Shown here: positions 229 to 15,900 of the stretch, one piece after another
Position numbering within the stretch: the first letter of the stretch is position 1
Layout of the letters: each line of letters begins with the position of its first letter
Made by a program: the position numbers and the translations under genes
Assembly: GCA_001871075.1 (NCBI GenBank)
Contig: MNUP01000069.1
Coordinates: forward strand, 1 to 15,900
Length of the DNA stretch: 15,900 nt
Direction of reading: 5' to 3'
DNA from: Candidatus Desantisbacteria bacterium CG1_02_49_89
GTDB lineage: Bacteria > Desantisbacteria > UBA1551
Notes under the pieces: model-generated
The model's database searches: none
What the model saw: only the letters and a program-made list of their open reading frames with translations
Told to the model about the DNA's origin: nothing

Positions 229-238
229 AGACACCACA

Positions 239-3061: not shown

Positions 3062-3080
3062 TTCCACTCCAAATAACCTT

Positions 3081-3155
3081 TAACCACGAATTAACACGAA
3101 TTTCCACGAATTCTTACTTTGTAAACTCTGTAAACTATATAAACTTTGTAAACCA
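3081..3155. repeat. Stuttering short repeats upstream of ileS
   Basis: Two words repeat in tandem with small changes. CACGAATT variants occur three times (3084-3112). TGTAAACT and TATAAACT variants follow (3119-3153). The same TAAACTTTG word reappears at 4450-4490. Just beyond, CGCATACATCCG (about 3172) and CGTATGCATCCG (about 3197) form another near-repeat. The stretch is non-coding. Function unknown. Confidence 0.75.
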
Positions 3156-3214
3156 GCATGGATTGTATTTATCCGCATACATCCGGTCTTTTCATACGTA
3201 TGCATCCGCCATAT

Positions 3215-4039: not shown

Positions 4040-4067
4040 TGATGCCTCCTGTAATAGAAATTAATAT

Positions 4068-4096
4068 ATTATAACATATTTAATACTTAAAGTCAA
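4068..4096 (-). promoter_or_regulatory. Sigma-70-type promoter of pnp
   Basis: On the minus strand, TTGACT (4096-4091) and TATAAT (4073-4068) are separated by exactly 17 bp. The -10 box is about 28 bases upstream of the pnp ATG. Just upstream of the -35 box is an A6-TGACG-T6 inverted repeat (about 4100-4116), an arrangement also found at other promoters in this window. Confidence 0.85.
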
Positions 4097-4125
4097 GCAA
4101 AAAACGTCATTTTTTGTCGTAAAAC

Positions 4126-4260
4126 AACCAAAGATTTCCACGAAAGCACGAAAGTATAACGAAATAAACCACAGAGGCACGGAGGCACAGTCCGCCCGTC
4201 TTTCAGCGGGCGAGACCTCGCCCCGATGTTAATCGGGGCGGGAGACTACCTTGTAAATTT
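4126..4260. repeat. Stuttering repeats plus GC-rich alternating hairpins
   Basis: This is the first part of the 497-bp spacer between hinT and pnp. At 4133-4190 the words CACGAAAG and GGCACGGAGGCACAG stutter. At 4193-4240, CGCCCG pairs with CGGGCG (4193-4198/4207-4212) and CGCCCCGAT pairs with ATCGGGGCG (4219-4227/4232-4240), joined by AGACCT. The middle arms can also pair with each other (GGGCGAG with CTCGCCC). CTAC follows at 4245-4248. The joining block recurs at 11138-11154. No coding potential is seen. Confidence 0.75.
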
Positions 4261-4295
4261 TCTGGCTTTTGCTGATAACTGACCGTATAAAACGA

Positions 4296-4331
4296 GTTCC
4301 CCTTTCTGCTTTCTTGAGAAAGCAGGGGAAC
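4296..4331. repeat. Long bulged hairpin
   Basis: The left arm, GTTCCCCT plus GCTTTCT, pairs with AGAAAGC plus AGGGGAAC. This makes 15 base pairs around a 2-nt loop, with a single 4-nt bulge (TTCT) on the left side. The flanks carry ATAACTGAC words on both sides (about 4274 and 4336). No T-run follows on the minus strand, so it is not a typical terminator. The bases to 4380 hold more short repeated words and no gene. Confidence 0.6.
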
Positions 4332-4385
4332 AACTCATAACTGACAACTGCTTTTGCAACACCGAATTAACACGAATAATGCTTT

Positions 4386-4437
4386 GGGCGGGCAAGCCCG
4401 CCCCTACGCGCACGCAAGCCTAAAGGCTTGCCCTACG
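4386..4437 (-). repeat. Two REP-like GTAG hairpins
   Basis: Unit 1: GGGCGGGC-AA-GCCCGCCC (4386-4403) followed by CTAC. Unit 2: GCAAGCC-TAAA-GGCTTGC (4414-4431) followed by CCTAC. Read on the minus strand, each is 5'-GTAG next to a perfect stem, the layout of bacterial REP elements recognised by RAYT transposases. The two stems are unrelated in sequence. No RAYT gene is in the window. Confidence 0.75.
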
Positions 4438-4440
4438 AAA

Positions 4441-4535
4441 CCCAACCTGTATAAACTTTGTAGCCTGTGTAAACTTTATAAACTCTGTAAACTATTTTAT
4501 GCTGACTGCTGGCCACTGGACACTGGACACTGTTT
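4441..4535. repeat. Stuttering repeats downstream of hinT
   Basis: TGTATAAACTTTG-like words repeat at about 4449-4495, matching those upstream of ileS. CCACTGGACACTGGACACTG follows at 4512-4531, immediately after the hinT stop in transcription order. No terminator is apparent. Confidence 0.7.
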
Positions 4536-4536
4536 A

Positions 4537-4878
4537 TCAGCCCGGAGGCCACTCCAGCTTCCTGCCTCCGAGCATGTGGTAATGGATATGGTAAACCGCC
4601 TGCCCTGCGTTGGGCCCGCAGTTCACAACCACCCTGAACCCGTCAACAAGGTTTTTCTGCTGCGCTATGGTGATCGCGGCTTTGTGCACGCTGTAAACCA
4701 GGTCTTTATCCTCATCTTTAAGCCCCAGCAAAGTCGGTATGTGTTTCTTAGGCACGATCAATATGTGGACAGGCGCCTTCGGGTCAACGTCATTAATGGC
4801 AAGCACATTGTCGTCCTCATACTCAATTTTGCTCTGGACCTCCTTCTTTGCTATCTTGCAGAATATGCACTCCGCCAT
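4537..4878 (-). CDS. hinT: HIT-family (HinT-like) nucleotide hydrolase
   Basis: A 113-residue protein spanning the whole histidine-triad fold. It begins with CIFCKI (4-9), typical of HinT, and contains VHILIVPKKHIPTL (37-50). The catalytic triad HIHYHML has His97, His99 and His101. It ends in WPPG, as do canonical HinT proteins. Family members hydrolyse AMP-lysine, AMP-phosphoramidates or aminoacyl-adenylates in the cytoplasm. The start is supported by AAGGAGG eight bases ahead of ATG at 4878 (minus strand). It sits 74 bp after the pfkB-like gene on the same strand and is probably cotranscribed with it. A 497-bp spacer then separates it from pnp. Confidence 0.93.
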   Translation of the reverse strand: MAECIFCKIAKKEVQSKIEYEDDNVLAINDVDPKAPVHILIVPKKHIPTLLGLKDEDKDLVYSVHKAAITIAQQKNLVDGFRVVVNCGPNAGQAVYHIHYHMLGGRKLEWPPG

Positions 4879-4888
4879 GCTTTCCTCC

Positions 4889-4950
4889 TTGATTACACAG
4901 ATTTTTAAATATGATTACACTGATTTTAAATTTTGAATCTGTGTAATCAA
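4889..4950. repeat. 15-bp inverted repeat between pfkB-like gene and hinT
   Basis: The arm TTGATTACACAGATT (4889-4903) is exactly complementary to AATCTGTGTAATCAA (4936-4950). A third, degenerate half (TGATTACACTGATTTT, 4912-4927) lies in between. The outer arm begins right behind the pfkB stop codon, and the hinT ribosome-binding site abuts the other arm. It could modulate readthrough into hinT or be a repeat remnant. Confidence 0.7.
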
Positions 4951-4952
4951 TT

Positions 4953-5858
4953 TCAAAACTCACGGATGGACTTGAACTCGTTAAACCTTCTTTCCACGTC
5001 AACGATGGAAATTTTCTTAAGAACTTCCAGGCCGAACCCCTCCGCGTTGTGGGACGCGATCGCGCTTCCGTATATCATCGCTTTCCTGACGTTCCACTCG
5101 CTCACATCATCCGTCTTGGCAAGAAAACCTGTCAATCCCCCTCCGAAACAGTCCCCGCAGCCTGTTGGGTCAACTACGTTCTCCAGCGGGTAGCTTGGAG
5201 CGCTGAAATGCGCTGCCCTTGTGAAAAGCAGGGCGCCGTGCTCACCTTTTTTGATGATCACCGCCCTGGGCCCCATGCCCAGCGCCGATTTACCTGCCCT
5301 GGAAAGATTGGGCATTTCGAAAAGCTCCCTTGCCTCTCCGTCGTTAAGGAGCAGCACGTCTATCTTCTTTATGACTTCCTTCACTTTTTCCCTTTTGTGC
5401 TCTATCCAGAAATTCATCGTATCCGCGATAACAAGATTAGGACTCCTTATCTGGGAAAGGACATCCAGCTGAAGCTGCGGGTCTATGTTCCCCAGAAAAA
5501 TAAATCTTGCGTCCCTGTATTCCGCGGGCAGGTCCGGTTTGAATGACGCGAGCACGTTCAGTTCGGTTTTGAGGGTCTTTGCCTCGTTCATGTCGTATTC
5601 GTAAGATCCCTGCCACCTGAAAGTCTTCGCGTTCTTCTCTTTCTTCAGGCCGTCAAGTGAGATGTTCCTTTTTCCCAGTATCTGGAGCGCGTCCTGCGGG
5701 AAATCCTCGCCCACCACCGCGACTATGCCCGGCCTGCAGAAAAAACTCGCGGCGTATGAAGCGTATGTCGCGCTCCCGCCCAGCACACCTTCGGCCTTGC
5801 CGAAAGGCGTCTCTATCGAATCGAGTGCCATTGTCCCGACTATAACTGCGTCAACCAT
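4953..5858 (-). CDS. PfkB-family (ribokinase-like) sugar or nucleoside kinase
   Basis: Transfers phosphate from ATP to a sugar or nucleoside hydroxyl; the substrate cannot be read from the sequence. The N-terminus MVDAVIVGTMALDSIETPFG is followed by LGGSATYAS and VAVVGEDFP, the substrate-side PfkB signature. Near the C-terminus is VDPTGCGDCFGGG, the second PfkB signature with its catalytic Asp. GCGD replaces the usual GAGD. An in-frame start at 5888 would add ten residues, but GGGAGG lies just upstream of ATG 5858, giving 301 residues, normal for the family. It follows rsmE at 166 bp and precedes hinT at 74 bp. The neighbouring pnp and hinT make a nucleoside kinase conceivable, but that is inference. 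Confidence 0.85.
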   Translation of the reverse strand: MVDAVIVGTMALDSIETPFGKAEGVLGGSATYASYAASFFCRPGIVAVVGEDFPQDALQILGKRNISLDGLKKEKNAKTFRWQGSYEYDMNEAKTLKTELNVLASFKPDLPAEYRDARFIFLGNIDPQLQLDVLSQIRSPNLVIADTMNFWIEHKREKVKEVIKKIDVLLLNDGEARELFEMPNLSRAGKSALGMGPRAVIIKKGEHGALLFTRAAHFSAPSYPLENVVDPTGCGDCFGGGLTGFLAKTDDVSEWNVRKAMIYGSAIASHNAEGFGLEVLKKISIVDVERRFNEFKSIREF

Positions 5859-5885
5859 TTTCGTCCTCCCGCTCAAATACAGTAT

Positions 5886-6021
5886 CAAAGTGTCAACGTG
5901 TCAGAGTATCAGAATTAATTCTAAATCAACTCAAAGGTCAAAGGTTAAAAGTCAAAGGTCAAAACTAATAATGTATTATACTTTTGACTTTTGCGATTTG
6001 ACATTTGCGATTTGCGATTCG
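5886..6021. repeat. Stuttering repeats between rsmE and the pfkB-like gene
   Basis: Three word families follow one another: GTGTCAACGTGTCAGAGTATC (5890-5910), then AAAGGTCAAAGGTTAAAAG repeats (5931-5963), then TTTTGACTTTTGCGATTTG variants (5981-6020). All are non-coding and AT-rich compared with the genes. Function unknown. Confidence 0.75.
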
Positions 6022-6024
6022 AAT

Positions 6025-6792
6025 TTAATTATCGGACGTGATGGTATTCTTGACCCTGGGCTCGAACTCATAAAGGACTATCGCAGCGGTTACAAGGCCG
6101 GCTGTTTCCGTCCTCAGAACATTGGGGCCAAGGCTTACCGGGATCGCGTCATTATAGCGCGCGTGGCCTATTTCATCCCTGGTAAACCCTCCTTCAGGCC
6201 CTATGAATATGCCGATGCGGTAGGGGTAGGCTTCGATCCTGCATTTTTTCAGGACATCTTTCAATCCTGTTCCCCTTTCGTCTTCCCAGGGCACTATCTT
6301 CAGGTCAAGCTCTGCTTTGAACGCCTCTTTGAACGGTATGATCTTACCTATCTCGGTAACCCTGGTCCTGCCTGATTGCTTGGACGCTTCTTTCGCTATC
6401 CTTTCCCACCTGGACCTGCGCTCTTCCATCTTGCCCGTTTCAATATCCGGAACTACGCGCGAAGTAACAATGGGCACTATCCTGTGAATGCCTATCTCGG
6501 TGCATTTCTCTACGATCAGGTCCATTTTGGTCGATTTCGGCAGGCCCTGAAAAAGCGTTACCTCAACGTAAGATTCCCTTTCCCTGAATTTTTCGTGTAT
6601 GACCCTCACGTCCACGCCGGAATCACCCGCGTTTTCAATGATAGCGAAATATTCTTTGCCTGTGCCGTCGAAAATGCTTATGGTATCCCCGCGCTCAAGC
6701 CTCAGCACCGTTGAGATATGCCTTGCTTCCCTGCCGCGAATGCTGAATTTATCCCCTTTTATTGTTTTCGGTTCAACGAAAAACCTCGGCAT
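6025..6792 (-). CDS. rsmE: 16S rRNA (uracil1498-N3)-methyltransferase
   Basis: Methylates N3 of U1498 in 16S rRNA of the 30S subunit, using S-adenosylmethionine; a SPOUT-fold enzyme. The 255-residue protein starts MPRFFVEP and has the N-terminal PUA-like segment with ARHISTVLRL. Next come LPKSTKMDLIVEKCTEIG and RWERIAKEASKQSGR. The SAM-binding knot is seen as IGPEGGFTRDEI (197-208) and LGPNVLRTETAG (221-232). All diagnostic blocks are intact. GGAG precedes ATG 6792 at a suitable distance. A consensus promoter lies about 120 bp upstream, directly behind a terminator hairpin, so this gene probably opens the transcription unit rsmE-pfkB-hinT. Confidence 0.96.
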   Translation of the reverse strand: MPRFFVEPKTIKGDKFSIRGREARHISTVLRLERGDTISIFDGTGKEYFAIIENAGDSGVDVRVIHEKFRERESYVEVTLFQGLPKSTKMDLIVEKCTEIGIHRIVPIVTSRVVPDIETGKMEERRSRWERIAKEASKQSGRTRVTEIGKIIPFKEAFKAELDLKIVPWEDERGTGLKDVLKKCRIEAYPYRIGIFIGPEGGFTRDEIGHARYNDAIPVSLGPNVLRTETAGLVTAAIVLYEFEPRVKNTITSDN

Positions 6793-6807
6793 TGCTTTTC
6801 TCCGTAA

Positions 6808-6845
6808 AATCGGTCATTGGTCATTAGTCATTTGTCATTAGTTAG
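6808..6845. repeat. Stuttering TCATT repeats in the rsmE leader
   Basis: GGTCATT, AGTCATT and TGTCATT variants repeat four times with a 7-8 nt period (6812-6841). They lie in the transcribed leader between the rsmE promoter and its ribosome-binding site. Confidence 0.7.
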
Positions 6846-6909
6846 AAATATTTATTTATTAAACTATCTTATATATGATTTTTAACTGGCTAAACTGACA
6901 TAACTTATT

Positions 6910-6938
6910 ATTATATATCATTTTAAGCGAAAAGTCAA
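6910..6938 (-). promoter_or_regulatory. Sigma-70-type promoter of rsmE
   Basis: Minus strand: TTGACT (6938-6933) and TATAAT (6915-6910) with a 17-bp spacer. The -35 box is only a few bases past the T-run of the terminator at 6945-6964, so the unit is insulated from upstream transcription. Confidence 0.85.
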
Positions 6939-6939
6939 C

Positions 6940-6970
6940 AAAAAAGCGGGGTTTTAACCCCGCTCTTTTT
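6940..6970 (-). terminator. Intrinsic terminator (works on paper in both directions)
   Basis: Stem AGCGGGG (6945-6951) pairs with CCCCGCT (6958-6964) around TTTTAA. On the minus strand it is followed by six T; on the plus strand it is followed by CTTTTT. It ends the transcript of the short gene at 7020-7226. Confidence 0.88.
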
Positions 6971-6980
6971 ATTTATGTAA

Positions 6981-7000
6981 CTCAAACCTTCAGGTTTGAG
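6981..7000. repeat. Perfect 9-bp hairpin behind the UPF0175-like fragment
   Basis: CTCAAACCT-TC-AGGTTTGAG is a perfect palindrome with a two-base loop. Its stem resembles the REP-like stem at 13416-13433 (CAAACC/GGTTTG) but it lacks a clear CTAC tag. It lies 20 bp beyond the stop of the 7020-7226 frame, ahead of the true terminator. Confidence 0.65.
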
Positions 7001-7019
7001 CCTGATTGTCTCTGTCCGT

Positions 7020-7226
7020 TTAACGTTTCAGCATCCCCTCAGGTTCCTTCAGGTTCTGGAATCCCTGGAGATAATCGTCATACCGGAGCGGAGACTCTAT
7101 GCCGAAACCTGCAAGCATATCTATCGCTTCGCTCATGGAATAACCGAGTTCCTCAGCCATCTTCCCGATGGATGCCTTCCCCGAACGGTACATCTTGAAC
7201 CAGTAGAAAGTCCAGCCTCCATTCAA
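7020..7226 (-). pseudogene. UPF0175-like antitoxin, C-terminal half of a split gene
   Basis: The 68-codon frame contains FKMYRSGKASIGKMAEELGY and IDMLAGFGIESPLRYDDYL. This resembles the winged-HTH half of UPF0175-type antitoxins (lykeGKiSLGkaAel... then a Gly-Ile and a DY/ED end). The family normally carries an N-terminal ribbon-helix-helix part of about 30 residues, absent here. The only nearby start is a TTG at 7226 with no convincing ribosome-binding site. A plausible missing part is encoded at 7996-8085 on the same strand. Directly upstream is a 28-bp repeat shared with 8148-8175. The 3' end looks intact and is followed by a terminator. Family assignment is from pattern memory. Confidence 0.6.
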
Positions 7227-7227
7227 C

Positions 7228-7255
7228 GTAATTAAGTATTGTGTCCCCGGAATTA
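7228..7255. repeat. 28-bp dispersed repeat, copy 1
   Basis: Contains AAGTATTGTGTCCCCGGAAT and matches 8148-8175 at 27 of 28 positions in the same orientation. It abuts the truncated end of the UPF0175-like fragment. Stuttering GGAATTACGAATTACGG words follow to 7280. Short GTGTCCCC-type words like this look like remnants of small mobile repeats; this is inference. Confidence 0.8.
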
Positions 7256-7280
7256 CGAATTACGGAATTATGCGGAATTA

Positions 7281-7303
7281 AAGTCAAGTACTAGACTTGA
7301 CTT
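7281..7303. repeat. Hairpin over the brnA-like stop codon
   Basis: AAGTCAAGT-ACTAG-ACTTGACTT, a perfect 9-bp stem. It includes the stop codon of the antitoxin gene ending at 7284. Only a short, interrupted T-run follows on the minus strand, so it is at best a weak terminator. Confidence 0.6.
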
Positions 7304-7583
7304 CTTGTCTTATTCCCCGGTCTATCCATTCGCGCATAAGTTTTTGGTAAGGGGCCTTTTTAATTTTAGCGATTTCTTTTGTTTTTTCTATTTCCCAATT
7401 TGCCAGGCGAATAGAGACTAATTTTTTAGTTGCTCTTTCTTTGATTTTATGAATTAAGGCAGGCGACAAAAGAAACAAGTCGTTTACTTCCTTAAGTTCC
7501 TCTAAATAGTCAGTTATACTATGTGTATCCCAAAACCTTAATTCATCTTCCAAATTTTTGAAATGCGGGATTTTTCTTTTCAT
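7284..7583 (-). CDS. BrnA-like / CopG-family antitoxin
   Basis: A 99-residue protein with PHFKNLEDELRFWDTHSITD (6-25), the FWdtHdstDY block typical of CopG-type antitoxins paired with BrnT toxins. A C-terminal ribbon-helix-helix region follows (VSIRLANWEIEKTKEIAKIK). It should bind and neutralise the toxin encoded just upstream and repress the shared promoter. Its ATG overlaps the toxin stop by 4 nt (ATGA), with an AGGAGG ribosome-binding site inside the toxin gene. Base composition is more AT-rich than the housekeeping genes. The gene pair sits between the two halves of a UPF0175-like gene. Confidence 0.82.
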   Translation of the reverse strand: MKRKIPHFKNLEDELRFWDTHSITDYLEELKEVNDLFLLSPALIHKIKERATKKLVSIRLANWEIEKTKEIAKIKKAPYQKLMREWIDRGIRQEVKSST

Positions 7584-7855
7584 AATTTTAATTTCCTCCT
7601 GTATAATCTTTTTTCTTCCTCATTCATATCCCTCGCAGTTATTACTTGAACATCCTTAACACCTTCTAAAAATTCAAAAACAACGATTAAATATCGGCCC
7701 GAAAATGTTCTGCCAAAAACCAAATATCTGCCTTGCCTTGTTTTTAAAAGAAAATATTTTGATACAAAAACTTCCTCTGTTTCATCTGGTCTGACATCGT
7801 GATTCCCGATATGTTCTATATTATTATCATTCCAAACAAACGATTTCATTTTCAA
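7580..7855 (-). CDS. BrnT-family toxin
   Basis: A 91-residue protein with FVWNDNNIEHIGNHDVRPDE (6-25) and YLVFGRTFSGRYLIVVF. It ends VITARDMNEEEKRLYRRK, the diagnostic BrnT layout (RelE-like fold, ribosome-dependent or free RNA cleavage in known members). The reading start is a TTG at 7855 with AGGAG six bases ahead; an ATG at 7849 is the alternative, with a longer 12-base spacing. It is first in the operon and followed by its antitoxin with a 4-nt overlap, the usual brnT-brnA order. A promoter is visible at 7886-7913. Confidence 0.85.
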   Translation of the reverse strand: MKMKSFVWNDNNIEHIGNHDVRPDETEEVFVSKYFLLKTRQGRYLVFGRTFSGRYLIVVFEFLEGVKDVQVITARDMNEEEKRLYRRKLKL

Positions 7856-7885
7856 GGGATACTCCTACTACTGTATTTACATTAT

Positions 7886-7931
7886 AGTATATACAAAAAA
7901 GAAATTTTGTCAAGAAAAAAATGATTTTTTT
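7886..7931 (-). promoter_or_regulatory. Promoter of the brnT/brnA-like operon with A7/T7 palindrome
   Basis: Minus strand: TTGACA (7913-7908), a 16-bp spacer, then TATACT (7891-7886). Upstream of the -35 box is a perfect palindrome (7915-7931) of seven A, TGA, then seven T on the plus strand. The whole 7908-7931 block (24 bp) is identical to 10839-10862 in front of the other toxin-antitoxin operon. Confidence 0.8.
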
Positions 7932-7995
7932 ATGGAATTAACTGTTGAGGTTGTTGCATTTGGGTTTCCAGTGATTTATTTCCTCGAGTTCAATT

Positions 7996-8085
7996 TTATC
8001 TTGATCGGTGCTCTTTATGTAACTTTGACAGCTTCTCTATCTTGTCAAGTTCTCCCCTATTTAAACGCAGGCTCATTACGCTCAT
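7996..8085 (-). pseudogene. UPF0175-like antitoxin, N-terminal half of a split gene
   Basis: A 29-codon frame beginning MSVMSLRLNRGELDKIEKL and running to KLHKEHRSR before a stop. This looks like the N-terminal ribbon-helix-helix segment (MSxxSLRL...) that precedes the HTH half in the UPF0175-type family, and the missing half is found at 7020-7226. Only about seven residues of the expected linker are lacking between the two parts. GGGAG lies nine bases before ATG 8085. The downstream bases to 7932 show no further homology and are taken to be inserted sequence. It is too short to function as a complete antitoxin. Confidence 0.5.
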
Positions 8086-8147
8086 TTTATTTTTCTCCCT
8101 TTATCTTCTCTTCCGCGTCACCTACGGTAATCCGCTGGGAAATCCGA

Positions 8148-8175
8148 GTAATCAAGTATTGTGTCCCCGGAATTA
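8148..8175. repeat. 28-bp dispersed repeat, copy 2
   Basis: Same orientation as copy 1 at 7228-7255, with one mismatch. It is flanked by ATCAAGTA on the left and TACTTGAT on the right (8152-8159/8177-8184), which could close a hairpin around the GTGTCCCC core. The remaining bases from 8086 to 8235 show only short AATCCG words and no gene. Confidence 0.78.
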
Positions 8176-8235
8176 TTACTTGATCGCCTCAAAATAATTG
8201 ATTGTGGGGCGTCTGAACGATCAAATTACACAAAA

Positions 8236-8835
8236 TTATAGTTTTTCTTTATCTTTTTGAGTGCCTTCTTGAATTGTTCGTTGCGAATAAATAATGTCAA
8301 TTGCAGCTACATTTGAATTAAACCAAGTCTTTGTCATTGTAATTTGGGTCGAACGGAGTAACCAGGTAATATCTAAAGAATTTTTTACTTCCGTGAGCTT
8401 ACCATATTTGTCTTCTAAAATTTTTACCAAAGAATTCCACACCTCATTCAATTCAATGCTGTTAAAATAGCCTCCGTCCTTTGGTTTTACTGCAAGTGTA
8501 ACTTCTTTTAATTTTTCATTACTATCAAAGTCAAATAGAACTATAGTAGGGTGATCAAACATTTTGTCTTCATATCTAATAGAATCAACTTTGTTAAAAA
8601 ACTTTGCCCACTTCTTATTTGTTTCCAATTTTAATGTTAATTCTTCCCACTTAACATCATTTATCGCAAGTTTTACTGCTTCTTTTGTCATTCCCCATTT
8701 TGCGTTTCTGTATCCGCCCGGGTCTAAAATGGTTTGAGTATTTAGGTCACCAATTTTTTCGACTATAGTATCAGCAAAACAATTAAGAGTGCAAAACATA
8801 ATAATTGAGGCAGATAAAAAAATGAGTCTTTTCAT
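8236..8835 (-). CDS. Small exported protein of unknown function
   Basis: About 199 residues. The N-terminus MKRLIFLSASIIMFCTLNCFA has a positive start and hydrophobic core, with likely signal peptidase I cleavage after CFA. LNC is a poor lipobox. The mature part has GYRNAKWGMTKEAVKLAI, a WGM-type motif seen near the N-terminus of many small exported proteins, then mixed alpha/beta sequence with EVWNSLVKILEDKYG. The ORF can be opened at a TTG at 8841, but AGGAG is six bases before ATG 8835. The gene is AT-rich like its toxin-antitoxin neighbours and stands alone. A 48-bp repeat begins 19 bases upstream. I do not recognise a named family. Confidence 0.72.
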   Translation of the reverse strand: MKRLIFLSASIIMFCTLNCFADTIVEKIGDLNTQTILDPGGYRNAKWGMTKEAVKLAINDVKWEELTLKLETNKKWAKFFNKVDSIRYEDKMFDHPTIVLFDFDSNEKLKEVTLAVKPKDGGYFNSIELNEVWNSLVKILEDKYGKLTEVKNSLDITWLLRSTQITMTKTWFNSNVAAIDIIYSQRTIQEGTQKDKEKL

Positions 8836-8853
8836 GATCAACTCCTGATATAA

Positions 8854-8901
8854 AAAAAGGGGGTCAGACCTTGAATATTGAATTATTTGTTACGCAGACC
8901 T
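8854..8901. repeat. 48-bp direct repeat, copy 1
   Basis: Identical over 48 bp to 10151-10198: A5G5, then TCAGACCTTGAATATTG, then AATTATTTGTTACGCAGACC. It ends inside the left arm of a REP-like hairpin. Here that hairpin is interrupted by a 31-nt insert; in copy 2 it is not. Confidence 0.88.
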
Positions 8902-9196
8902 CCCTCCTAACATAACTGGCGGGTCTTCGAAAAGGTCTGCCCTACGAAAGACGTCCCGATAAATCGGGACCGCTACAAAAATACGCAAACCTCCCTCCTA
9001 AATAATTGGCAGCTTGCCCGCCAGTTAGTTTGGCGGGGGTCTTCGAAAAGCCTTGCCCTACGAAATTATTCGGGCTCAATCCTCCTTAAAAATTGGCGGA
9101 CAGGTAAATTGGGCCCCTACGCGCAGGCTGAAGCCTGCGGCTACCAATGTGCGATGAATCGTCCACCAAACTGACTGGCGGACAGGCACCGCTATC
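8894..9196 (-). repeat. Array of REP-like GTAG hairpins, several with inserts in loop or arm
   Basis: This is the main part of the 619-bp gene-free stretch between the exported protein and the PIN module. Units on the plus strand are: GCAGACCT/AGGTCTGC (8894-8901/8933-8940) with a 31-nt insert, then CCTAC; GTCCCGAT-AA-ATCGGGAC (8953-8970), then CGCTAC; GCAAACCT/AGCCTTGC (8985-8992/9049-9056) with a 56-nt insert, then CCTAC; GGGCTCAAT/ATTGGGCCC (9072-9080/9108-9116) with a 27-nt insert, then CTAC; CGCAGGCT-GA-AGCCTGCG (9122-9139), then GCTAC; and GTGCGAT-GA-ATCG, a 25-nt insert (9162-9186), then CAC and CGCTAT. All carry the tag on the same side. Confidence 0.75.
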
Positions 9197-9300
9197 CGCC
9201 CCGACGAAAAGTCGGAGCGGGCAAAATCCCCTCCGAAGAGTCCGCATACTCCGTCCTTTCGGAGTCATCGGACCTGTGTCCCCCTTTAAAAAGGGGGAAA
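9197..9300. repeat. Further palindromes, no GTAG tag
   Basis: Palindromes CGAC-GAAAA-GTCG within a CCGCCC/GCGGG frame (about 9197-9221), ACTCCG/CGGAGT (9248-9265), and CCCCCTTT-AA-AAAGGGGG (9280-9297). From 9300 to 9454 no repeat or gene could be supported. A short open frame there (minus strand, about 9345-9450) has no recognisable features. Confidence 0.6.
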
Positions 9301-9454
9301 TAGATCGGGCGTCATAAATACCGCCCCTACAGGTCACCTGATAATGATGCTTTTGCACAAAATAAAAGGTGCTTTACCCGCAAACCGGCGGTTCAGCGCC
9401 CTGTAATACATAAAATCAGTAAAGCCATATAAGGAATTTATCGGCGACAAAATA

Positions 9455-9631
9455 TCACACGCGGATAGGTTTTTTTTCCACCCGTTTTAATTTTAAGTTT
9501 GCTTCTTTGAGAAACTTCTCTGATTCTTCGTGAATCCTTTTGATCCTCTGCTCAGGAGTTAGGTGTTTTTCTTCTTCATAAACCTTTTCCATTATCTCGT
9601 GGATTTCTCTCATTACTTTTGATTCTTTCAT
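9455..9631 (-). CDS. Small charged partner (putative antitoxin) of the PIN protein
   Basis: A 58-residue protein, MKESKVMREIHEIMEKVYEE and onward, with LTPEQRIKRIHEESEKFLKE in the middle. It is highly charged and predicted all-helical, the kind of short protein encoded beside PIN-domain genes as an antitoxin. Its ATG at 9631 overlaps the PIN stop by 4 nt (ATGA), strong evidence for translational coupling. It lacks an obvious DNA-binding domain. The toxin-first order is the reverse of classical vapBC. A role as neutralising partner is inferred from position and size; I know no named family for it. Confidence 0.7.
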   Translation of the reverse strand: MKESKVMREIHEIMEKVYEEEKHLTPEQRIKRIHEESEKFLKEANLKLKRVEKKPIRV

Positions 9632-10098
9632 GGTTCAACCACCTCCAACGGTGAACAGATTTCTATTTCAGAATAGTCCAGTAATTTATTCACTCCGTTT
9701 ACTTCTGTCCTTGTTTTTAGTTTGACGATATGCTGAAAATTCCAGCTCACTATGACATCCATTTCATTTATTACCGCCACGGCAATATGGATAGCGTCCG
9801 CACGGTACTTTTCAGGAATTATACCTTCCCTTATATACCTATCAGCCAATGCTTCTGCTTCAGAATCAATTTCCAGCATCTGAGGAGCAACCCTGCGCAC
9901 TAAATCCTCCACCTGGGTCTTTCTTGGCTCAGACGCCCTGCCTATTTCTCTGGCGACTTCTTCAGAAATAAAGATTCCTTCAGCTTGCTTGGAAAGAATC
10001 TTAAAAAGCTTTTCTGTAACCTCCCTTTTTTCCGGAGCATCATCGGCAAACATAAAGTTAAATATACTGGTATCAAAGTAGTAGTTTTTCTTCTTCAA
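9628..10098 (-). CDS. PIN-domain protein (VapC-like putative ribonuclease toxin)
   Basis: A 156-residue PIN fold. YFDTSIFN (7-14) carries the first acidic residue, EEVAREI the second and YRADAIHIAVA the third. VSWNFQHIVKLKT has Asn where many VapC proteins have a fourth Asp. The ending (VNKLLDYSEIEICSPLEVVE) is characteristic of a widespread solo-looking PIN family. Expected activity is metal-dependent RNA cleavage. The start is TTG at 10098, with GGGAG five bases before it and no better ATG nearby. A TATAAT-like -10 is at 10137-10132, but no good -35 is seen. The 58-residue gene at 9455-9631 overlaps its stop. Confidence 0.85.
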   Translation of the reverse strand: MKKKNYYFDTSIFNFMFADDAPEKREVTEKLFKILSKQAEGIFISEEVAREIGRASEPRKTQVEDLVRRVAPQMLEIDSEAEALADRYIREGIIPEKYRADAIHIAVAVINEMDVIVSWNFQHIVKLKTRTEVNGVNKLLDYSEIEICSPLEVVEP

Positions 10099-10150
10099 TT
10101 ATACTCCCGGACATTCCCCCGTTTCCCTTTTATTATAAGGGTAAAACGCG

Positions 10151-10214
10151 AAAAAGGGGGTCAGACCTTGAATATTGAATTATTTGTTACGCAGACCTAA
10201 AGGTTTGCCACTAC
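10151..10214. repeat. 48-bp direct repeat, copy 2, running into an uninterrupted REP-like hairpin
   Basis: Bases 10151-10198 equal 8854-8901. The hairpin GCAGACC-TAAA-GGTTTGC (10191-10208, one G-T wobble) is followed by CACTAC at 10209-10214. This is the empty-loop counterpart of the hairpin at 8894-8940. The remaining spacer to 10301 holds a CAA-rich run (minus strand, about 10264-10300) and nothing else recognised. Confidence 0.85.
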
Positions 10215-10301
10215 ATTCCGATCTAAGGGTAATGATACTCAAATATTTGTGTTACAGAGCACTAGTTGTTTTTCTTGGTTGTTGTTGTTTGTTATTGTTT
10301 T

Positions 10302-10565
10302 TTAAGAAGAGTAGGTTCTTTCATTCCTTCGCCTTATATAGATGATTTCAATGAGTTTATTTATTAAATCAAACCTGTATCCAATCCTAAAATTACCTTG
10401 TCTTATTCTATAATAAAATTCTTTACCTTTTTTAATTTTCTTTACTCCTATTGGTAATGGATTAAATTTAAGAGCCTTAATATTATCAGCAATCCGTTGA
10501 AGGTCATCCCTGCTGATATTTTCAATATCTTTTTTAACGCTTTTCTTTACAATAAGATTAAACAT
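10302..10565 (-). CDS. RelE/ParE-family toxin
   Basis: An 87-residue protein starting MFNLIVKKSVKKDIENI. It has the family's C-terminal beta sheet: FYYRIRQGNFRIGYRFD, then IEIIYIRRRNERTY. This matches the RelE/ParE consensus yRlRvGdyRiiY...HR..vY, here with RRRNERTY in the last segment. Likely a ribosome-dependent mRNA interferase or gyrase poison; the sequence alone does not separate the two. Its ATG lies inside the end of the antitoxin gene (8-nt overlap), so translation is coupled and follows the antitoxin. A CAA-rich stretch follows the stop with no terminator. AT-rich. Confidence 0.85.
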   Translation of the reverse strand: MFNLIVKKSVKKDIENISRDDLQRIADNIKALKFNPLPIGVKKIKKGKEFYYRIRQGNFRIGYRFDLINKLIEIIYIRRRNERTYSS

Positions 10566-10794
10566 TTAGACCTTTATGTTTTAAATGTTTATTCCATTCC
10601 GCTTCACTCATTGAGGGTTCATTCTTTCGGGACTCTATAATAACCAAATCTTCTTCATCTTCTTTCATTTCCTCGATCTTCTCGGCAACCGCCTCAGTAA
10701 CAAAATGAGATATTACGACCCCGTTTTGTTTGCGGATGTTTTGTAATTCTTTAATAAGAGCTTCAGGCATTCTGACAGCCATCAATTTTATCAT
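10558..10794 (-). CDS. Ribbon-helix-helix (CopG-like) antitoxin
   Basis: About 78 residues: MIKLMAVRMPEALIKELQNI forms the N-terminal RHH strand and first helix. VISHFVTEAVAEKIEEMKE is the second helix, and the acidic C-terminal tail (EDEEDLVIIESR) is the probable toxin-binding part. An upstream TTG at 10809 is in frame but overlaps the ribosome-binding site. GGAGG stands eight bases before ATG 10794, so I use that start. It is the first gene of the operon, directly behind a near-perfect promoter (10816-10844), and probably represses it. Confidence 0.85.
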   Translation of the reverse strand: MIKLMAVRMPEALIKELQNIRKQNGVVISHFVTEAVAEKIEEMKEDEEDLVIIESRKNEPSMSEAEWNKHLKHKGLNV

Positions 10795-10815
10795 TTTTAT
10801 CACCTCCAATATCTA

Positions 10816-10862
10816 ATTATAGCATATTATAACAATTATGTCAAGAAAAAAATGATTTTTTT
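10816..10862 (-). promoter_or_regulatory. Consensus promoter of the RHH/RelE operon with A7/T7 palindrome
   Basis: Minus strand: TTGACA (10844-10839), 17 bp, TATAAT (10821-10816), a full match to the sigma-70 consensus. A second TATAAT-like word lies within the spacer. The block 10839-10862 is identical over 24 bp to 7908-7931. Confidence 0.9.
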
Positions 10863-10944
10863 GTGTAAATTAGAAAATTTTTAAGAGCGTGGAAATTTGT
10901 TTATCGTCGGAAAAAACTGAAAATGGTAGGAATGGCATAACTAT

Positions 10945-11030
10945 GTCGGATGAATCCGACCGCTCCAAATATGCGATAAATCGCAGCGGACAAAATCCCC
11001 CTATGTCCCCCTTTATTAAAGGAGGAAACG
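10945..11030 (-). repeat. REP-like hairpins and a C5T3/A3G-type palindrome
   Basis: This is part of the 579-bp gene-free stretch 10795-11373. GTCGGAT-GA-ATCCGAC (10945-10960) is followed by CGCTCC, a degenerate CTAC tag. TGCGAT-AA-ATCGCA (10972-10985) is followed by GCGG. An imperfect CCCCCTTT...AAAGGAGG palindrome (about 11007-11025) resembles 9280-9297. Confidence 0.65.
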
Positions 11031-11041
11031 GGAATTATTAC

Positions 11042-11290
11042 GCAAGGCTCCCTCCTAATAAAATTGGCAGCTTGCCCGCCAGTTAGTTTGGCGGGGGTCT
11101 TCGAAAAGCCTTGCCCTATCCGCCCCGATGGACATCGGGGCGAGACCTCGCCCCAAAGGGGCGGGCGAAATATTCGGGTTCAATCCTCCTTAAAAATTGG
11201 CGGACAGGTAAATTGAGCCCCTACGCGCAGGCTGAAGCCTGCGGCTACCCACAAGGTTACCTTTGGGCGACCAAGGTCGCCCCTACGCGC
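11042..11290 (-). repeat. Second array of REP-like GTAG hairpins with inserts
   Basis: Units: GCAAGGCT/AGCCTTGC (11042-11049/11107-11114) enclosing a 57-nt insert almost identical to that at 8993-9048; CGCCCCGATG-GA-CATCGGGGCG (11121-11142); CGCCCC-AAA-GGGGCG (11149-11163), whose arms can also pair with the preceding hairpin; GGGTTCAAT/ATTGAGCCC (11176-11184/11212-11220) with a 27-nt insert identical to 9081-9107, then CTAC; CGCAGGCT-GA-AGCCTGCG (11226-11243), then GCTAC; and GGGCGACC-AA-GGTCGCCC (11265-11282), then CTAC. The order parallels the array at 8985-9139. Confidence 0.78.
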
Positions 11291-11317
11291 ATCTTCACCC
11301 ACATCCCGCAAACAACA

Positions 11318-11362
11318 CCCTCACCTCAATCCTCCCCCGTGTAAGGGGGAGGAAGAATTAGG
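11318..11362. repeat. CCTCCCCC hairpin downstream of the DUF6785 gene
   Basis: CCTCCCCC-GTGTAA-GGGGGAGG (11331-11352), preceded by TCACCTCAAT. On the minus strand it lies 22 bp beyond the stop of the membrane-protein gene. No T-run follows, so it is a repeat that might stall transcription and not a standard terminator. Confidence 0.6.
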
Positions 11363-11373
11363 AGTAGTGAATT

Positions 11374-13335
11374 TTATAGAAAGGGCGCGACAGTATGGCC
11401 GCGTATGCCGGTGAACATATCTATCACGACCCAGAGACCCTTGACAAAGAATTCACCCAGGATCAGCCCCAGGAATCCGGGCATAAGCCTGCGGTAAACC
11501 TTTATCCCGCCGAACCTCATAACCAGGGACTTGATCGCCCATCCAAGCATTATCGGGAACCATATCTGGACAGTGGGCCATGAATCCCCCATTATGTAAC
11601 CCAGGGGGTGGAACGGCCACCAGAGAAACATGCGCCGCATCCACAGCAGGAATATCATCGAGCCAACGCCTATGAACATTGACAGGATGTATTTCGGGTT
11701 CGCCTTTACGGGATTGTTCAGAAGATTTGCAGAATGCATGCTCCCCCATTCAGGGCCATAAGCCCAGGTGTATCCCGTGCAGTTCACTCCCCCGATCTTA
11801 TACATCAGCGCGATGTAGGTAGGGTATGAAATAAGGATCGTGACCAGGATGCCCAGTGCTATTACGATCGTGGTATGCCTGGGTTTTAATTTTGCCGCGT
11901 CGGTGATCTTCATGCTGTCAAAAAGCGAAGGCATCAGCACGCTTCGCTGGTCCCTCATGAACACGTGCTCCACAGGGCCTATAAGCGTGGCTATGTTGTT
12001 CGTGCCCAGCATCGTGCTTCCGGTAAAAGCCATTATCAGGTCAGACGGCCTGAAGGATGCCTGGAAGAAATAAATGCCGCCTTCCGCCGCAAGCCTGGAC
12101 GCTGAAATGACTATGAGGAAAAAGATGATGAAAATAATGAGGATCAGCCAGAAGGACGCGCCAGCTGCCATGCCCCAGAAACCGATGAAGAGCAGGCCGG
12201 CAATAAGGCCGAGCAGCGCGGTCCTGTATGAAACCGGCTCGTTCGCCTCTTCGGGATCCTTCTCCCTGCTGAAAGCCCTTGTGAAGATCCTCTTTATCTC
12301 CGCCCTCGCAGCCCAGAAAAGGAACCCTGCGAAAACCATCATACCGCCCGCGATCTGGTACCCGATAAACGCCCTTGTGGGATACGTGAACATCATCGGC
12401 ATCGGGAAACCCATCGCCGAACCGGCAATAGCCTGGAGCCTGAAGAAAAAGTAGAAAAACCACAGGCTGAATGAAAGCTGGGTGGGTAAAAGGTATGTAA
12501 GGCCCAGCGCGCTGAATATCATCGCCAGGTTTATCGGGTTCAAACCGTCCCACGGTTTGGTCTTGATGAACGACGAAAGCCACAGGTTCAGCTGTATCTG
12601 CGGCACGAACGGAAAATAATGGTGCAGGCCGTTCAGTGTAAGGATAACAGCCGGTATAGCGAACCCTATCCACATCACTTTGTCCCTAAAGAACGGCGAA
12701 AGGGCGTGCCCTTCTTCCTCTTTTGCCATCTCTAACGGAAGCGAAACCAGCGGGAACATAAGTTTCTCGTTCTGGACCCACTGCTTGCGCATGAGCACCA
12801 CGACGCAGAACATTACAAGGTACATTGAAAGTGCGAGTATGATCCAGGACACAAAAGGCCTTACCCAGTCTCCCCAGGGTATTTTCATCCCCAGGGGCAG
12901 CCCTTCCCAGAGGTAAGTTATGGAACTCGGGTTGGCAGGGACCAGCCATTTCACAAGGTACGGATGCAGTATCTGCGCCCACCTGTTAGTCGGGTTGGCA
13001 GCGTAAAACTCCTTTGTGGTTATCGGTATGAGTGAATGCACCAGGCCAAGGGACGCGATGCATCCGCTTACGAGCATCATGCTGTATATGAACATGAGCT
13101 CGCTCTGGTTAAGCCCTACCTTCATTTTTTTCAGCAGGAAATTCACCACAAGGACAAGCACCGTGAACGTGAATACCACGTTAACGGGCAAAAATTCCGC
13201 GCCGCTCCAGACCGTGCCGACAACCAGGTCGCTGAAAGGGCTGAAAATGCTTATGAAAGCAACGCATATCAGGCCCACGATCACGCCTTTCCAGGTCAGG
13301 CCGTTCAGCTGACCCCCTCCCTTCTGCTCTTCCAT
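11374..13335 (-). CDS. Polytopic membrane protein, DUF6785/OPT-like
   Basis: 653 residues with about 14 hydrophobic segments: for example WKGVIVGLICVAFISIF near the N-terminus, SWIILALSMYLVMFCVVVL, LIIFIIFFLIVI and FPIMLGWAIKSLVM. The cytoplasmic-looking block MRKQWVQNEKLMFPLVSLPL and the SRLAAEGGIYFFQ stretch are typical of large uncharacterised membrane proteins (DUF6784/DUF6785) with an oligopeptide-transporter-like layout. A transport role is inferred; substrate unknown. AGGAGGGG lies a few bases ahead of ATG 13335. The LamG/Ig-like gene ends 164 bp upstream on the same strand. The spacer carries repeats and no obvious promoter, so cotranscription is possible but not shown. Confidence 0.75.
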   Translation of the reverse strand: MEEQKGGGQLNGLTWKGVIVGLICVAFISIFSPFSDLVVGTVWSGAEFLPVNVVFTFTVLVLVVNFLLKKMKVGLNQSELMFIYSMMLVSGCIASLGLVHSLIPITTKEFYAANPTNRWAQILHPYLVKWLVPANPSSITYLWEGLPLGMKIPWGDWVRPFVSWIILALSMYLVMFCVVVLMRKQWVQNEKLMFPLVSLPLEMAKEEEGHALSPFFRDKVMWIGFAIPAVILTLNGLHHYFPFVPQIQLNLWLSSFIKTKPWDGLNPINLAMIFSALGLTYLLPTQLSFSLWFFYFFFRLQAIAGSAMGFPMPMMFTYPTRAFIGYQIAGGMMVFAGFLFWAARAEIKRIFTRAFSREKDPEEANEPVSYRTALLGLIAGLLFIGFWGMAAGASFWLILIIFIIFFLIVISASRLAAEGGIYFFQASFRPSDLIMAFTGSTMLGTNNIATLIGPVEHVFMRDQRSVLMPSLFDSMKITDAAKLKPRHTTIVIALGILVTILISYPTYIALMYKIGGVNCTGYTWAYGPEWGSMHSANLLNNPVKANPKYILSMFIGVGSMIFLLWMRRMFLWWPFHPLGYIMGDSWPTVQIWFPIMLGWAIKSLVMRFGGIKVYRRLMPGFLGLILGEFFVKGLWVVIDMFTGIRGHTVAPFL

Positions 13336-13357
13336 GGTCCCCTCCTTTTTTAAACTG

Positions 13358-13498
13358 ACGATTACGGTGATTTAAAAATAACGATTACGGAATTGAGCAC
13401 CCACTCCCAAAACACGCAAACCTAAAGGTTTGCCCTACAATAAAATTCCTTGTTGTTGCGCTGACACGTTGATACGTTGACACGCTGACACGCTTTTT
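13358..13498. repeat. Spacer repeats: stuttering words flanking one REP-like hairpin
   Basis: ACGATTACGG occurs twice (13359-13368, 13380-13389). GCAAACC-TAAA-GGTTTGC (13416-13433) is followed by CCTAC, another 5'-GTAG hairpin on the minus strand. GCTGACACG and GTTGATACG words then repeat four times (about 13459-13494) up to the stop of the upstream gene. Confidence 0.75.
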
Positions 13499-13499
13499 A

Positions 13500-15900
13500 T
13501 TATTTAATGCGTACTTTGAAGCGGACGCTGCGCGTCTCGCCTGGAACAAGCGTGTTGATGAACCACCGCAGGCCTTTGACATCCGCGCCAACCGGGCCAG
13601 GAACACTTCCCCATGCTTCCCAAACCGCAAGCGCCGGGTCCGTGGAATAAGCCCACGAATCAACGGGATTGCCTGTCAGGACATGGGTGTTCAGGGAAAC
13701 AAAAGCAACCGCGGAAAAAACAGACGTATCAAAAACATCCTTGTCGGTTACGATAACATTTATCGCTGTTTCTGTCCCGGCATTCCTTATCAATAGCTTC
13801 CATTCAACCGTGTCTTCCTGCCCCACGGAGATCGGAGATGTTGTCGCGTAATCCGCGGGATCAACCCCGTCCTTTCTCTGGAATTTCTGAACAATGATGA
13901 CCGGCATAGTGATATATTCCAGCTGGTAACCGGTCAGGTCAGAGGACGCAACGTAGATTGCGGATGTTCCTCCTTTTGCATCCTTATAAAAGAACGTGAC
14001 CAGCCCGTCTGAAGCGTAGACGACCGTAGTATCGGACCACGGGGTCCTGCTTACGGAGAACCTGGCTTTGACCGAGTTTGAAACAAGTCCTATCGTATCG
14101 CTCCACCCCGCATCCGTGTTCCCGAGCTCGTCCTGCATCACAACCGTCACCGTATCGGAAACCTGCGTCGAAGGCATCCTGAACGAAGAAGAAGCGAATA
14201 CAGCGCGCGACGCTGAAACGATCTCAGCCTGGGTATCCGCTGACAAACCCGCCCGTGAAACCGTTATCACCGGCCTGCCTGAAGCGTAATCCAGGTAATA
14301 GAAAGATGCCTGCCCCTTGCTGAAATAAACGGAAGAATCGGACCCGGGCGCCGACCAGTCAATGCCGTTAGAAGAGAACGAGCCGCTCTCAGAACTGGTT
14401 GAAAGCAGGGCTGCTTCCCCGAACAGGTCATCCGTATTGCCTGCCGCGTCCGAAGCATTTATGGAAACAGCGGCAGAAACCCCTCCAGATCTTACCCTGA
14501 ACGGAGCAGAGGCGAATTTTAATTTTCCGGCGCTGAACCTCATCTGCCCGGCCCTGTTCTCATAATCCGCCTTTACCTCGTCACCCGTAAGGCTCTTGTT
14601 GTATATTTTCACTTCGTCTATAATTCCCTTGAAACACGCGTTGTGCCCGGTGCCGCTCACGTAGAACGTGGCTGAGTTGCCGAAGCTCTTCATATACGCG
14701 GTAGAACCTATAAGGCTGCCGTTCACGTAAAGCCTTATATTGCTGCCGTCGAATGTCCCTGCAAGGTGGTGCCACTGGTTGTTGGTTATGGCACCGCCGG
14801 AAATTCCCCTCTGCACCCCGTCCAGGTCCAGGCCGAAATAAGCGGTGCTGTTCATTACCATCAGTATGTACGAACCTTCCGCGTCCCACCCTTTCTCAAT
14901 TACCCTGTTGAACTGCTTGGCTGAATCAGTCGGGTAGATCCACACCTCGACCGTTATCGCGTCCGTCAGATACATGCCGGGTGAATGGGGAACTGTCATG
15001 AACGCGTTCTCCCCGTCCATGTCAAGCCCGTACCCGAACCTGCCTGTTGTCCACCCCGCTCCTGAAAGGGTCCCGATATTATTGTTCCCGGAAAGGTCGG
15101 AAGAAGAAGCCCCGGTGCCTTCCTCAAAATTCCAGAACCCGGCAAGCGCGTCCTGATAATAAACCTGCGTTATTGTATCCGGATACCCGGTTACCGTGAA
15201 CGCGGGGGTCACGCTGCCCAGCACCGACGAAACAACAACAGCAGTGCATTTCCCGCTGGCGTCAGTTGTCTGGCCGAACGGGTAGGCAATGGTATCAAAA
15301 CCCCGCCCCGTATGCAGGACCGCTTCCATTCCCTGCATGGGGTTGCGCGCCGAATCAGTTACCGAAACGATCATTGTGCAGGGAGTTACGCCGTTGGCCG
15401 GAACCGTTGAACTGCTTACCGTAATATACGAAGCTGTGCCTGAGAATGAGCCCTGCGCCACTGAAGCCGTCTGGGTCGCCCCCTGCAGGCCGGCGGATGA
15501 AACCGTCAGTGTCGGCGAACCGGGCCTTGAATCCCTGTAGAACACATATGTCTCTCCGTTTTCCATTTTAACGGTGAGCGCCGAGGCCCAGGTATCCCCT
15601 GCCTGCGAAGCGCAAAACTTTCCAAGGCCCGAGGAGGTGGAGAACTGGCAGTAGCCGTTGTAACCCGAAGCTTTTGACCCGTCGCCCCACTGCGCCTGCA
15701 CCGCGATCGAATCCGAAACAAAACCCGGCTGCACGCTCCTCTCCGGGGTGATGAACGCGAGCTTGGAGGCGCCGATGAACCTAACGCTGGATGCCCCGGA
15801 AGCGTAGCGCATCGCGACCTCGTCAGCCGAAAGAGCCCGGTTGTAAATGCGCACGTCATCGATCATGCCGTTGAAGTAGTCGGTCCCGTATTCGTATCCT
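13500..15900 (-). CDS. LamG / Ig-like repeat surface protein, C-terminal part (5' end outside window)
   Basis: About 800 residues are visible and the frame is open through the right edge; an internal ATG at 15866 is not the start. In order: the end of a LamG (concanavalin-like) domain, DYFNGMIDDVRIYNRALSAD; an Ig-like domain (about 15800-15460); a Big_1/invasin-like domain (VPANGVTPCTMIVSVTD, about 15450-15170); a complete LamG domain from FWNFEEGTGASSSDLSGNN to IIDEVKIYNKSLTGDEV (about 15150-14575); two further Ig-like repeats (to about 13905); and a DUF11-like tail (VEWKLLIRNAGTETAINVIV). It is probably secreted or cell-surface and binds sugars or adheres. No membrane anchor or sorting signal is visible at the C-terminus. 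Confidence 0.88.
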   Translation of the reverse strand, partial: GYEYGTDYFNGMIDDVRIYNRALSADEVAMRYASGASSVRFIGASKLAFITPERSVQPGFVSDSIAVQAQWGDGSKASGYNGYCQFSTSSGLGKFCASQAGDTWASALTVKMENGETYVFYRDSRPGSPTLTVSSAGLQGATQTASVAQGSFSGTASYITVSSSTVPANGVTPCTMIVSVTDSARNPMQGMEAVLHTGRGFDTIAYPFGQTTDASGKCTAVVVSSVLGSVTPAFTVTGYPDTITQVYYQDALAGFWNFEEGTGASSSDLSGNNNIGTLSGAGWTTGRFGYGLDMDGENAFMTVPHSPGMYLTDAITVEVWIYPTDSAKQFNRVIEKGWDAEGSYILMVMNSTAYFGLDLDGVQRGISGGAITNNQWHHLAGTFDGSNIRLYVNGSLIGSTAYMKSFGNSATFYVSGTGHNACFKGIIDEVKIYNKSLTGDEVKADYENRAGQMRFSAGKLKFASAPFRVRSGGVSAAVSINASDAAGNTDDLFGEAALLSTSSESGSFSSNGIDWSAPGSDSSVYFSKGQASFYYLDYASGRPVITVSRAGLSADTQAEIVSASRAVFASSSFRMPSTQVSDTVTVVMQDELGNTDAGWSDTIGLVSNSVKARFSVSRTPWSDTTVVYASDGLVTFFYKDAKGGTSAIYVASSDLTGYQLEYITMPVIIVQKFQRKDGVDPADYATTSPISVGQEDTVEWKLLIRNAGTETAINVIVTDKDVFDTSVFSAVAFVSLNTHVLTGNPVDSWAYSTDPALAVWEAWGSVPGPVGADVKGLRWFINTLVPGETRSVRFKVRIK

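Follow-up and report, generated by a model that had tools for sequence, protein, structure and literature searches.

How does one and the same hairpin come to carry a short loop at one place and a much longer loop at another? The question is raised by a stretch of 15,900 nt, hereafter the window, from Candidatus Desantisbacteria bacterium CG1_02_49_89 (GTDB lineage Bacteria; Desantisbacteria; UBA1551; assembly GCA_001871075.1, contig MNUP01000069.1, positions 1-15,900 of the forward strand). Sequence comparison confirmed a 48-bp identity between positions 8854-8901 and 10151-10198 and, as the preliminary description had stated, the same hairpin follows both copies, each with arms that can pair. 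At 10191 it reads GCAGACC-TAAA-GGTTTGC, with one G.T pair; at 8894 it reads GCAGACC-T[29 nt]AAA-GGTCTGC, followed by CCTACG. The insert had been given as 31 nt (8902-8932). However, judged against the short-form loop TRAA, bases 8931-8933 (AAA) are the old loop, so that this figure overcounts by two loop bases and the insert is one of 29 nt (8902-8930, CCCTCCTAACATAACTGGCGGGTCTTCGA). On folding with DNA energies it forms an inner stem of its own (-8.6 kcal/mol, z -2.3). The two hairpins had also been read as a filled and an empty REP hairpin. Their left flank is indeed common, but their right flanks are unlike (GGTCTGCCCTACGAAAG vs GGTTTGCCACTACATTC); they are therefore two dispersed REP copies rather than an allelic filled/empty pair, and do not on their own prove insertion.

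Counts given below come from genome-wide searches and from sampled stretches picked around matches. The inserts in long loops form a common family at a fixed position. Its unit, which we term type A, has the form YCCNCC - N9 to N11 - GGCGGR - TCTTCGA (28-30 nt), i.e., an imperfect hairpin whose 3' tail is conserved; dozens of copies are spread over at least ten arm types. Its place in the tetraloop of GTAG-type REPs is after T and before RAA (CT^RAAG), a position that is constant across all intact REP copies; the near-universal layout is arm-C-T-[type A unit]-RAA-G-arm' plus a foot CCTAC, GTTAC or GGCTAC. The host repeats have the GTAG tag beside a short palindrome, and the many dispersed copies, of GTAG-type REPs. 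For the GCA, CGCA and related arm types the feet CTACG and CTACA on the arm strand correspond to the GTAG tag, while the TCA arm types have the foot GTTAC, i.e., a GTAA variant of the tag.

In the 2.48-Mb genome a covariance model of type A gave at least 68 matches at E<1e-4 among the 150 candidates scored. Two of the 68 (L126:2821 and L127:587) lie outside REPs, with the type A tail inside CCTCCCCC...GGGGGAGG palindromes. The genome contains 35 copies of the motif GGGTCTTCGAAAAG but 0 of its backward control, and the motif is hardly found elsewhere; this control and the model matches rule out a chance origin of the long-loop family. It had been laid down beforehand that loop sequences unrelated elsewhere would speak against insertion, and what we found was one family at one position. 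Among the 386 genomes of the comparison set, the sole relative from the same order (G001) contained 10-11 matches to the model; some of its copies have kept YCC...GGRTCTTCGARAAG with the hairpin body replaced. Beyond these two genomes the model gave a single weak match in the set (G088:C45:76754-76809, L145). This lone filled-like REP, T[TCCGCC-N-GCGGATCATGGA]AAAG with arms GCAGGGC/GCCCTGC, looks like a distant relative. A scan of a contig collection yielded one pattern match each in Aquabacterium and an Acidobacteria bin, both without REP arms and judged to be due to chance, and a scan of viral contigs yielded no match to the pattern. An orphan scan for larger elements with type A ends yielded just diverged or hybrid copies.

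In an alignment of 24 un-nested type A copies, the insert was near-constant (most of the 21 invariant columns lie within it) and the arms were variable. Of the arm cells, 95.8% were paired, six of the seven arm pairs had changed on both sides, and covariation over the whole structure was 0.441, compared with 0.158 for shuffled alignments. The outer pair of the insert also shifts from C-G to T-A, a T.C mismatch in the stem is retained in most copies, and conservation extends to the stem and tail but not to the 9-nt loop, which drifts. At least five perfect arm pairs were present in 45 of about 56 copies, against 8.5 when the right arms were shuffled. The sampled loci also contained 98 empty hairpins whose arms were 6 bp or longer (loop TGAA in 53, TAAA in 45), and about ten arm types were found both empty and filled, with matching feet. 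The right ends of filled copies read CGA-GAA-G or CGA-AAA-G, so that removal of the insert restores exactly the two empty loops.

In a search with flanking sequences the best pair, aligned with gap 0, was filled C119 (L067) and empty C100 (L061:19484-19559), with a left flank of 40 nt at 92% and a right flank of 36 nt (...CGTAAAACAACGGGGCT^AAAGCCCCTACTCC). The filled copy thus differs by an exact insertion of 28 bp, with no duplication of the target. A second pair (L116 vs L069:11048-11121) differs in the loop at one base (A/G), and in a tandem pair on C109 about 77 nt are common on the left, one copy being empty and the other filled. Because the flanks are themselves repeats, these pairs are paralogous, not orthologous. 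The exact pairs, and the covariation of the arms around a constant insert, support the original proposal of a precise loop insertion that leaves the arms able to pair.

A second unit, type B (TCCTCC-N9-GGCGGACAGG), occupies the site GA^TAAATC of a different REP type, the exact empty form of which is present at 8953-8976 (Table 1). Since it once lies inside an arm (9162-9186), loops are preferred but not exclusive sites. TCCNCC...GGCGGACAAG units sit before GGCGGG within type A inserts and within free CCCGCC hairpins, and further related units occur in CCTCCCC palindromes or GTGTC arrays. A second level within type A is frequent (AGCTTGCCCGCC-N9-GGCGG) and a third was found at L052 and L117, inserts thus being two or three deep; nested units occur in both orientations. 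About six copies have mixed arms from two REP types and, at L132:716 (minus), the left half of type A is fused to the right half of type B. It follows from the fusion and the mixed-arm copies that exchange inside the insert does happen. The 28-30 nt unit, the T^RAA site, the nesting and the related mini-hairpins in other palindromes all go beyond the preliminary description.

Table 1. REP hairpins and their inserts in the window, filled and empty
Feature	Position	Strand	Remark
48-bp repeat leading into filled hairpin, including left arm and loop T	8854-8901	+	Identical to 10151-10198
Left arm GCAGACC of filled REP	8894-8900	+	Pairs with 8934-8940
Loop insert, 29 nt, type A, CCCTCC-N10-GGCGGG-TCTTCGA	8902-8930	+	Family of 68 matches; boundary from empty loops T^RAA
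AAA, rest of original TAAA loop	8931-8933	+	From short-form comparison
Right arm GGTCTGC and foot CCTACG (GTAG tag, minus strand)	8934-8946	+	
Empty copy: 48 bp, loop TAAA, right arm GGTTTGC, foot ACTACA	10151-10215	+	
Second filled REP, left arm GCAAACC, right arm GCCTTGC (different REP types)	8985-9062	+	
Insert with nested hairpin in second filled REP	8993-9046	+	
Third filled REP, arms GCAAGGC/GCCTTGC	11042-11114	+	
Insert with nested hairpin in third filled REP	11050-11104	+	
Type B insert TCCTCC-N9-GGCGGACAGG in loop of another REP, GGGCTCAA^TAAATTGGGCCCCTACG	9080-9104	+	
Type B insert in second copy of the 9080 REP	11184-11208	+	
Type B insert in REP right arm, not loop, GTGCGATGAATCG^CACCGCTA	9162-9186	+	
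Empty type B target GTCCCGATAAATCGGGACCGCTAC	8953-8976	+	Filled counterparts C109 (L056:10188, minus), C27 (L109:6702, minus)
Empty REP GCAAGCC-TAAA-GGCTTGC	4414-4431	+	
Empty REP GCAAACC-TAAA-GGTTTGC	13416-13433	+	

An 82-bp repeat in the window (9064-9145 vs 11168-11249, 96% identical) comprises a type B filled REP and then an empty REP. A PIN-domain protein (PF01850; 9628-10098, minus), possibly a toxin or nuclease, is encoded next to the empty REP at 10191. Adjacent genes at 7284-7855 (minus) encode CopG-antitoxin-like (PF12441) and BrnT-like (PF04365) proteins, likely a BrnT/BrnA toxin-antitoxin pair, and a 28-bp repeat, GTAATYAAGTATTGTGTCCCCGGAATTA (7228-7255 and 8148-8175, 96% identical), lies on both sides of this region. 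Arrays of 9-bp tandem units, AACTTTGTA-like, are present at 3116-3156 and 4455-4495. A search of positions 8500-11500 against Rfam gave no family above the gathering cut-off; the lone match (27 bits vs a gathering score of 140) was judged to be due to chance.

By what route did the inserts reach their loops? Their edit distance is 3.56 within arm types and 4.92 between them (permutation p 0.0015), so that much of the spread represents inheritance together with the arms. However, one identical version of the insert (TTAAAGATT) is found in the arm types TCAGGGC, CGCAACC and TCAAACC, and another (ATAATGACT) in TCAGGGC and GCAAGCC. Inheritance and transfer between types are therefore both needed. 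The explanation that we favour, while giving it about an even chance of being correct, is that the element entered REP loops once the REP types had already diverged, and then spread by two routes. The first would be passive, the element being carried inside REPs and REP pairs (REPINs) by REP-associated tyrosine transposases. The second, between arm types, would be loop transfer from hairpin to hairpin when both are exposed in single-stranded form, via template switching or by recombination through short homology at the common apex CT...RAAG; when repeated, this would generate nested inserts and hybrids with mismatched arms. It is from sequence patterns that we infer the direction of insertion, the mobility and the single-strand intermediates. 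Evidence for this explanation comes from the constant position, the restoration of both empty loops, the flanked pairs, the covarying arms, the identical inserts across arm types, the mixed-arm and fused copies, and the REP-associated tyrosine transposase genes with filled REPs around one of them (see below). The closer similarity of inserts within arm types counts against it. In addition, loop-to-loop copying alone fails to explain a conserved stem and tail with a drifting loop, whereas a recognized element would.

The genome contains ten Y1 genes. Two proteins encoded on C23 are REP-associated tyrosine transposases (NF047646, 99.7 and 94.7 bits, above cut-off); their genes (L055, 1740-2222 and 3766-4248, minus) are alike, each is beside REP arrays, and filled REPs at C23 3638, 3717 and 4462 surround the gene at 3766-4248. 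A further Y1 transposase gene, at L009 (C111:6097-9426), has arrays of another kind of hairpin on both sides (CCTCAACTTGTTGAGG and CCCCAACAAGTTGGGG). TnpA-REP proteins bind folded hairpins and cleave at CT (PMC8266576). In the group 3 REP loop of Marinomonas, whose wild-type form TTTA is the complement of TAAA, the essential residues are T12, T13 and A15, whereas position 14 can vary (PMC8266576). The host loop described here, TTYA when read on the GTAG strand, is compatible with that of Marinomonas. With the insert placed between positions 14 and 15, a filled REP could keep T12-A15 beside the stem. Filled REPs may therefore still serve as substrates, and might also have kept their mobility.

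An enzyme of this kind might also act on the insert itself. On this rival view, type A would be a miniature transposable element in its own right: a Y1/HUH transposase (REP-associated or IS200/IS605-like) would recognize the hairpin and tail, move the unit in the form of single-stranded DNA and join it 3' of CT in the single-stranded loop. We regard this as somewhat unlikely. The imperfect stem with its conserved mismatch, the conserved tail, the drifting loop, the absence of target duplication and the ten Y1 genes are all consistent with it, and the site CT^RAA fits the published cleavage by TnpA-REP at CT (PMC8266576). However, the type A unit terminates in CGA rather than CT, and it is the strand complementary to the GTAG strand that carries the CT. 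In addition, other target bases (GA^TAAA, ATT^GGCGG, CG^CAC) are used by type B and the related units, and no Y1 gene with the type A unit as its flanking ends was found. Nor do we know of any IS200/IS605 unit as small as 28-30 nt with one hairpin. The idea that hairpins of 25-30 nt are the smallest transposable units known, inserted by an enzyme as single-stranded DNA into the tips of extruded hairpins, and recursively so, seems to us unlikely; if true, recursive insertion at hairpin tips would mean that the genome builds palindromes within palindromes.

The association between arms and inserts (p 0.0015) would also be expected if the insert had a single origin in one REP, and filled REPs had then spread whole, their arms diversifying by paired changes with no later transfer; sub-families with complementary stems are a usual feature of REP families (PMC3733652). 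Nevertheless, empty and filled lineages would each have had to evolve the ten arm types in parallel, matching feet included, and identical inserts occur across arm types with different feet. We consider this history unlikely.

As to direction, short GCARRCC-type REPs without the long form occur in two other lineages, with four copies in G087 (two of the four read, REPIN-like, GTAGGGCAAGGC-TTCA-GCCTTGC...GCARGCC-TAAA-GGCTTGCCCTAC) and one in G116, whereas in G001 empty and filled REPs occur together in the genome. The long form is therefore most simply regarded as derived, and the short form is, on this distribution, probably ancestral. Thus, the other outcome named beforehand as adverse, i.e., that the short form is a deletion in all relatives, was not what these genomes showed. 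The reverse, an ancestral long form from which short forms arose by precise loop deletion, is highly improbable: both forms do coexist in both genomes of the order, but the short TRAA REPs in two lineages without long forms and the wild-type loop TTTA of Marinomonas (PMC8266576) argue against it, and loops would have had to be cut back to exactly TRAA many times independently. Scarcely credible is a selected structured RNA or DNA signal (a processing site, terminator or protein site) with a functional extra stem and bulge, which would account for the invariant tail and stem, the C-G to T-A shift of the outer insert pair and the YCC...GGRTCTTCGARAAG kept in G001 copies with a replaced hairpin body, but not for mismatched-arm hybrids, nested inserts, units nested in both orientations, identical arms with and without the insert, or the lack of an Rfam family at cut-off in 8500-11500.

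These results bear on how non-coding repeats of 20-30 bp spread. Because the target is defined to the base, arm types are matched between empty and filled states and hybrids exist, the rival mechanisms give different, checkable predictions, and single-strand transposition, loop-to-loop template switching and passive spread with REPs can be separated. The two subterminal hairpins, guide and cleavage tetranucleotides and autonomous relative of IS200/IS605-type elements are not seen in type A, which has one hairpin in 28-30 nt and for which the orphan scan shows no larger element with the same ends. Nor does it have the terminal inverted repeats and target-site duplication of MITEs, there being no duplication in the exact pairs. 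In cyanobacteria, small dispersed repeats (SDRs), reportedly described by Elhai and colleagues in 2008, are said to be dispersed units of 21-30 nt that insert precisely into other repeats, with no target duplication and without a known transposase. The exact type A pairs match this account, a likeness by description rather than membership, although the lineage is different and the site used by type A is the REP hairpin apex. Tiny mobile repeats are, on this account, already known from cyanobacteria.

Mitochondrial GC clusters and (double) hairpin elements are likewise tiny, presumed mobile, non-coding hairpins, but these are organellar and unlike type A in sequence (PMC2800124). REPINs and RAYTs (PMC3116915, PMC8266576) include host repeats of the same kind, and RAYT genes are present in the genome, but the insert, unlike a REP, has no GTAG tag of its own. 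REP hairpins are also the specific target of IS1397, IS621, ISKpn1, ISPpu9 and similar insertion sequences (PMC1525189); each of these is a complete element that encodes its transposase, whereas the type A unit is non-coding and of 28-30 nt. In GTAG REP families such as GTAG-3 and GTAG-14, short and long self-complementary loop forms exist in one genome, and REPs inside other palindromes have been noted (PMC3733652). The likeness is that of GTAG-tagged REPs with short and long loops; the difference is that here one constant unit, bounded by T^RAA, is present or absent in at least ten stem types whose feet are not all of one type, and also occurs nested. Short and long GTAG REP loops (PMC3733652) and insertion sequences in REPs (PMC1525189) were therefore already known, whereas the base-exact target common to many stem types, the coexisting empty and filled states and the recursion are new.
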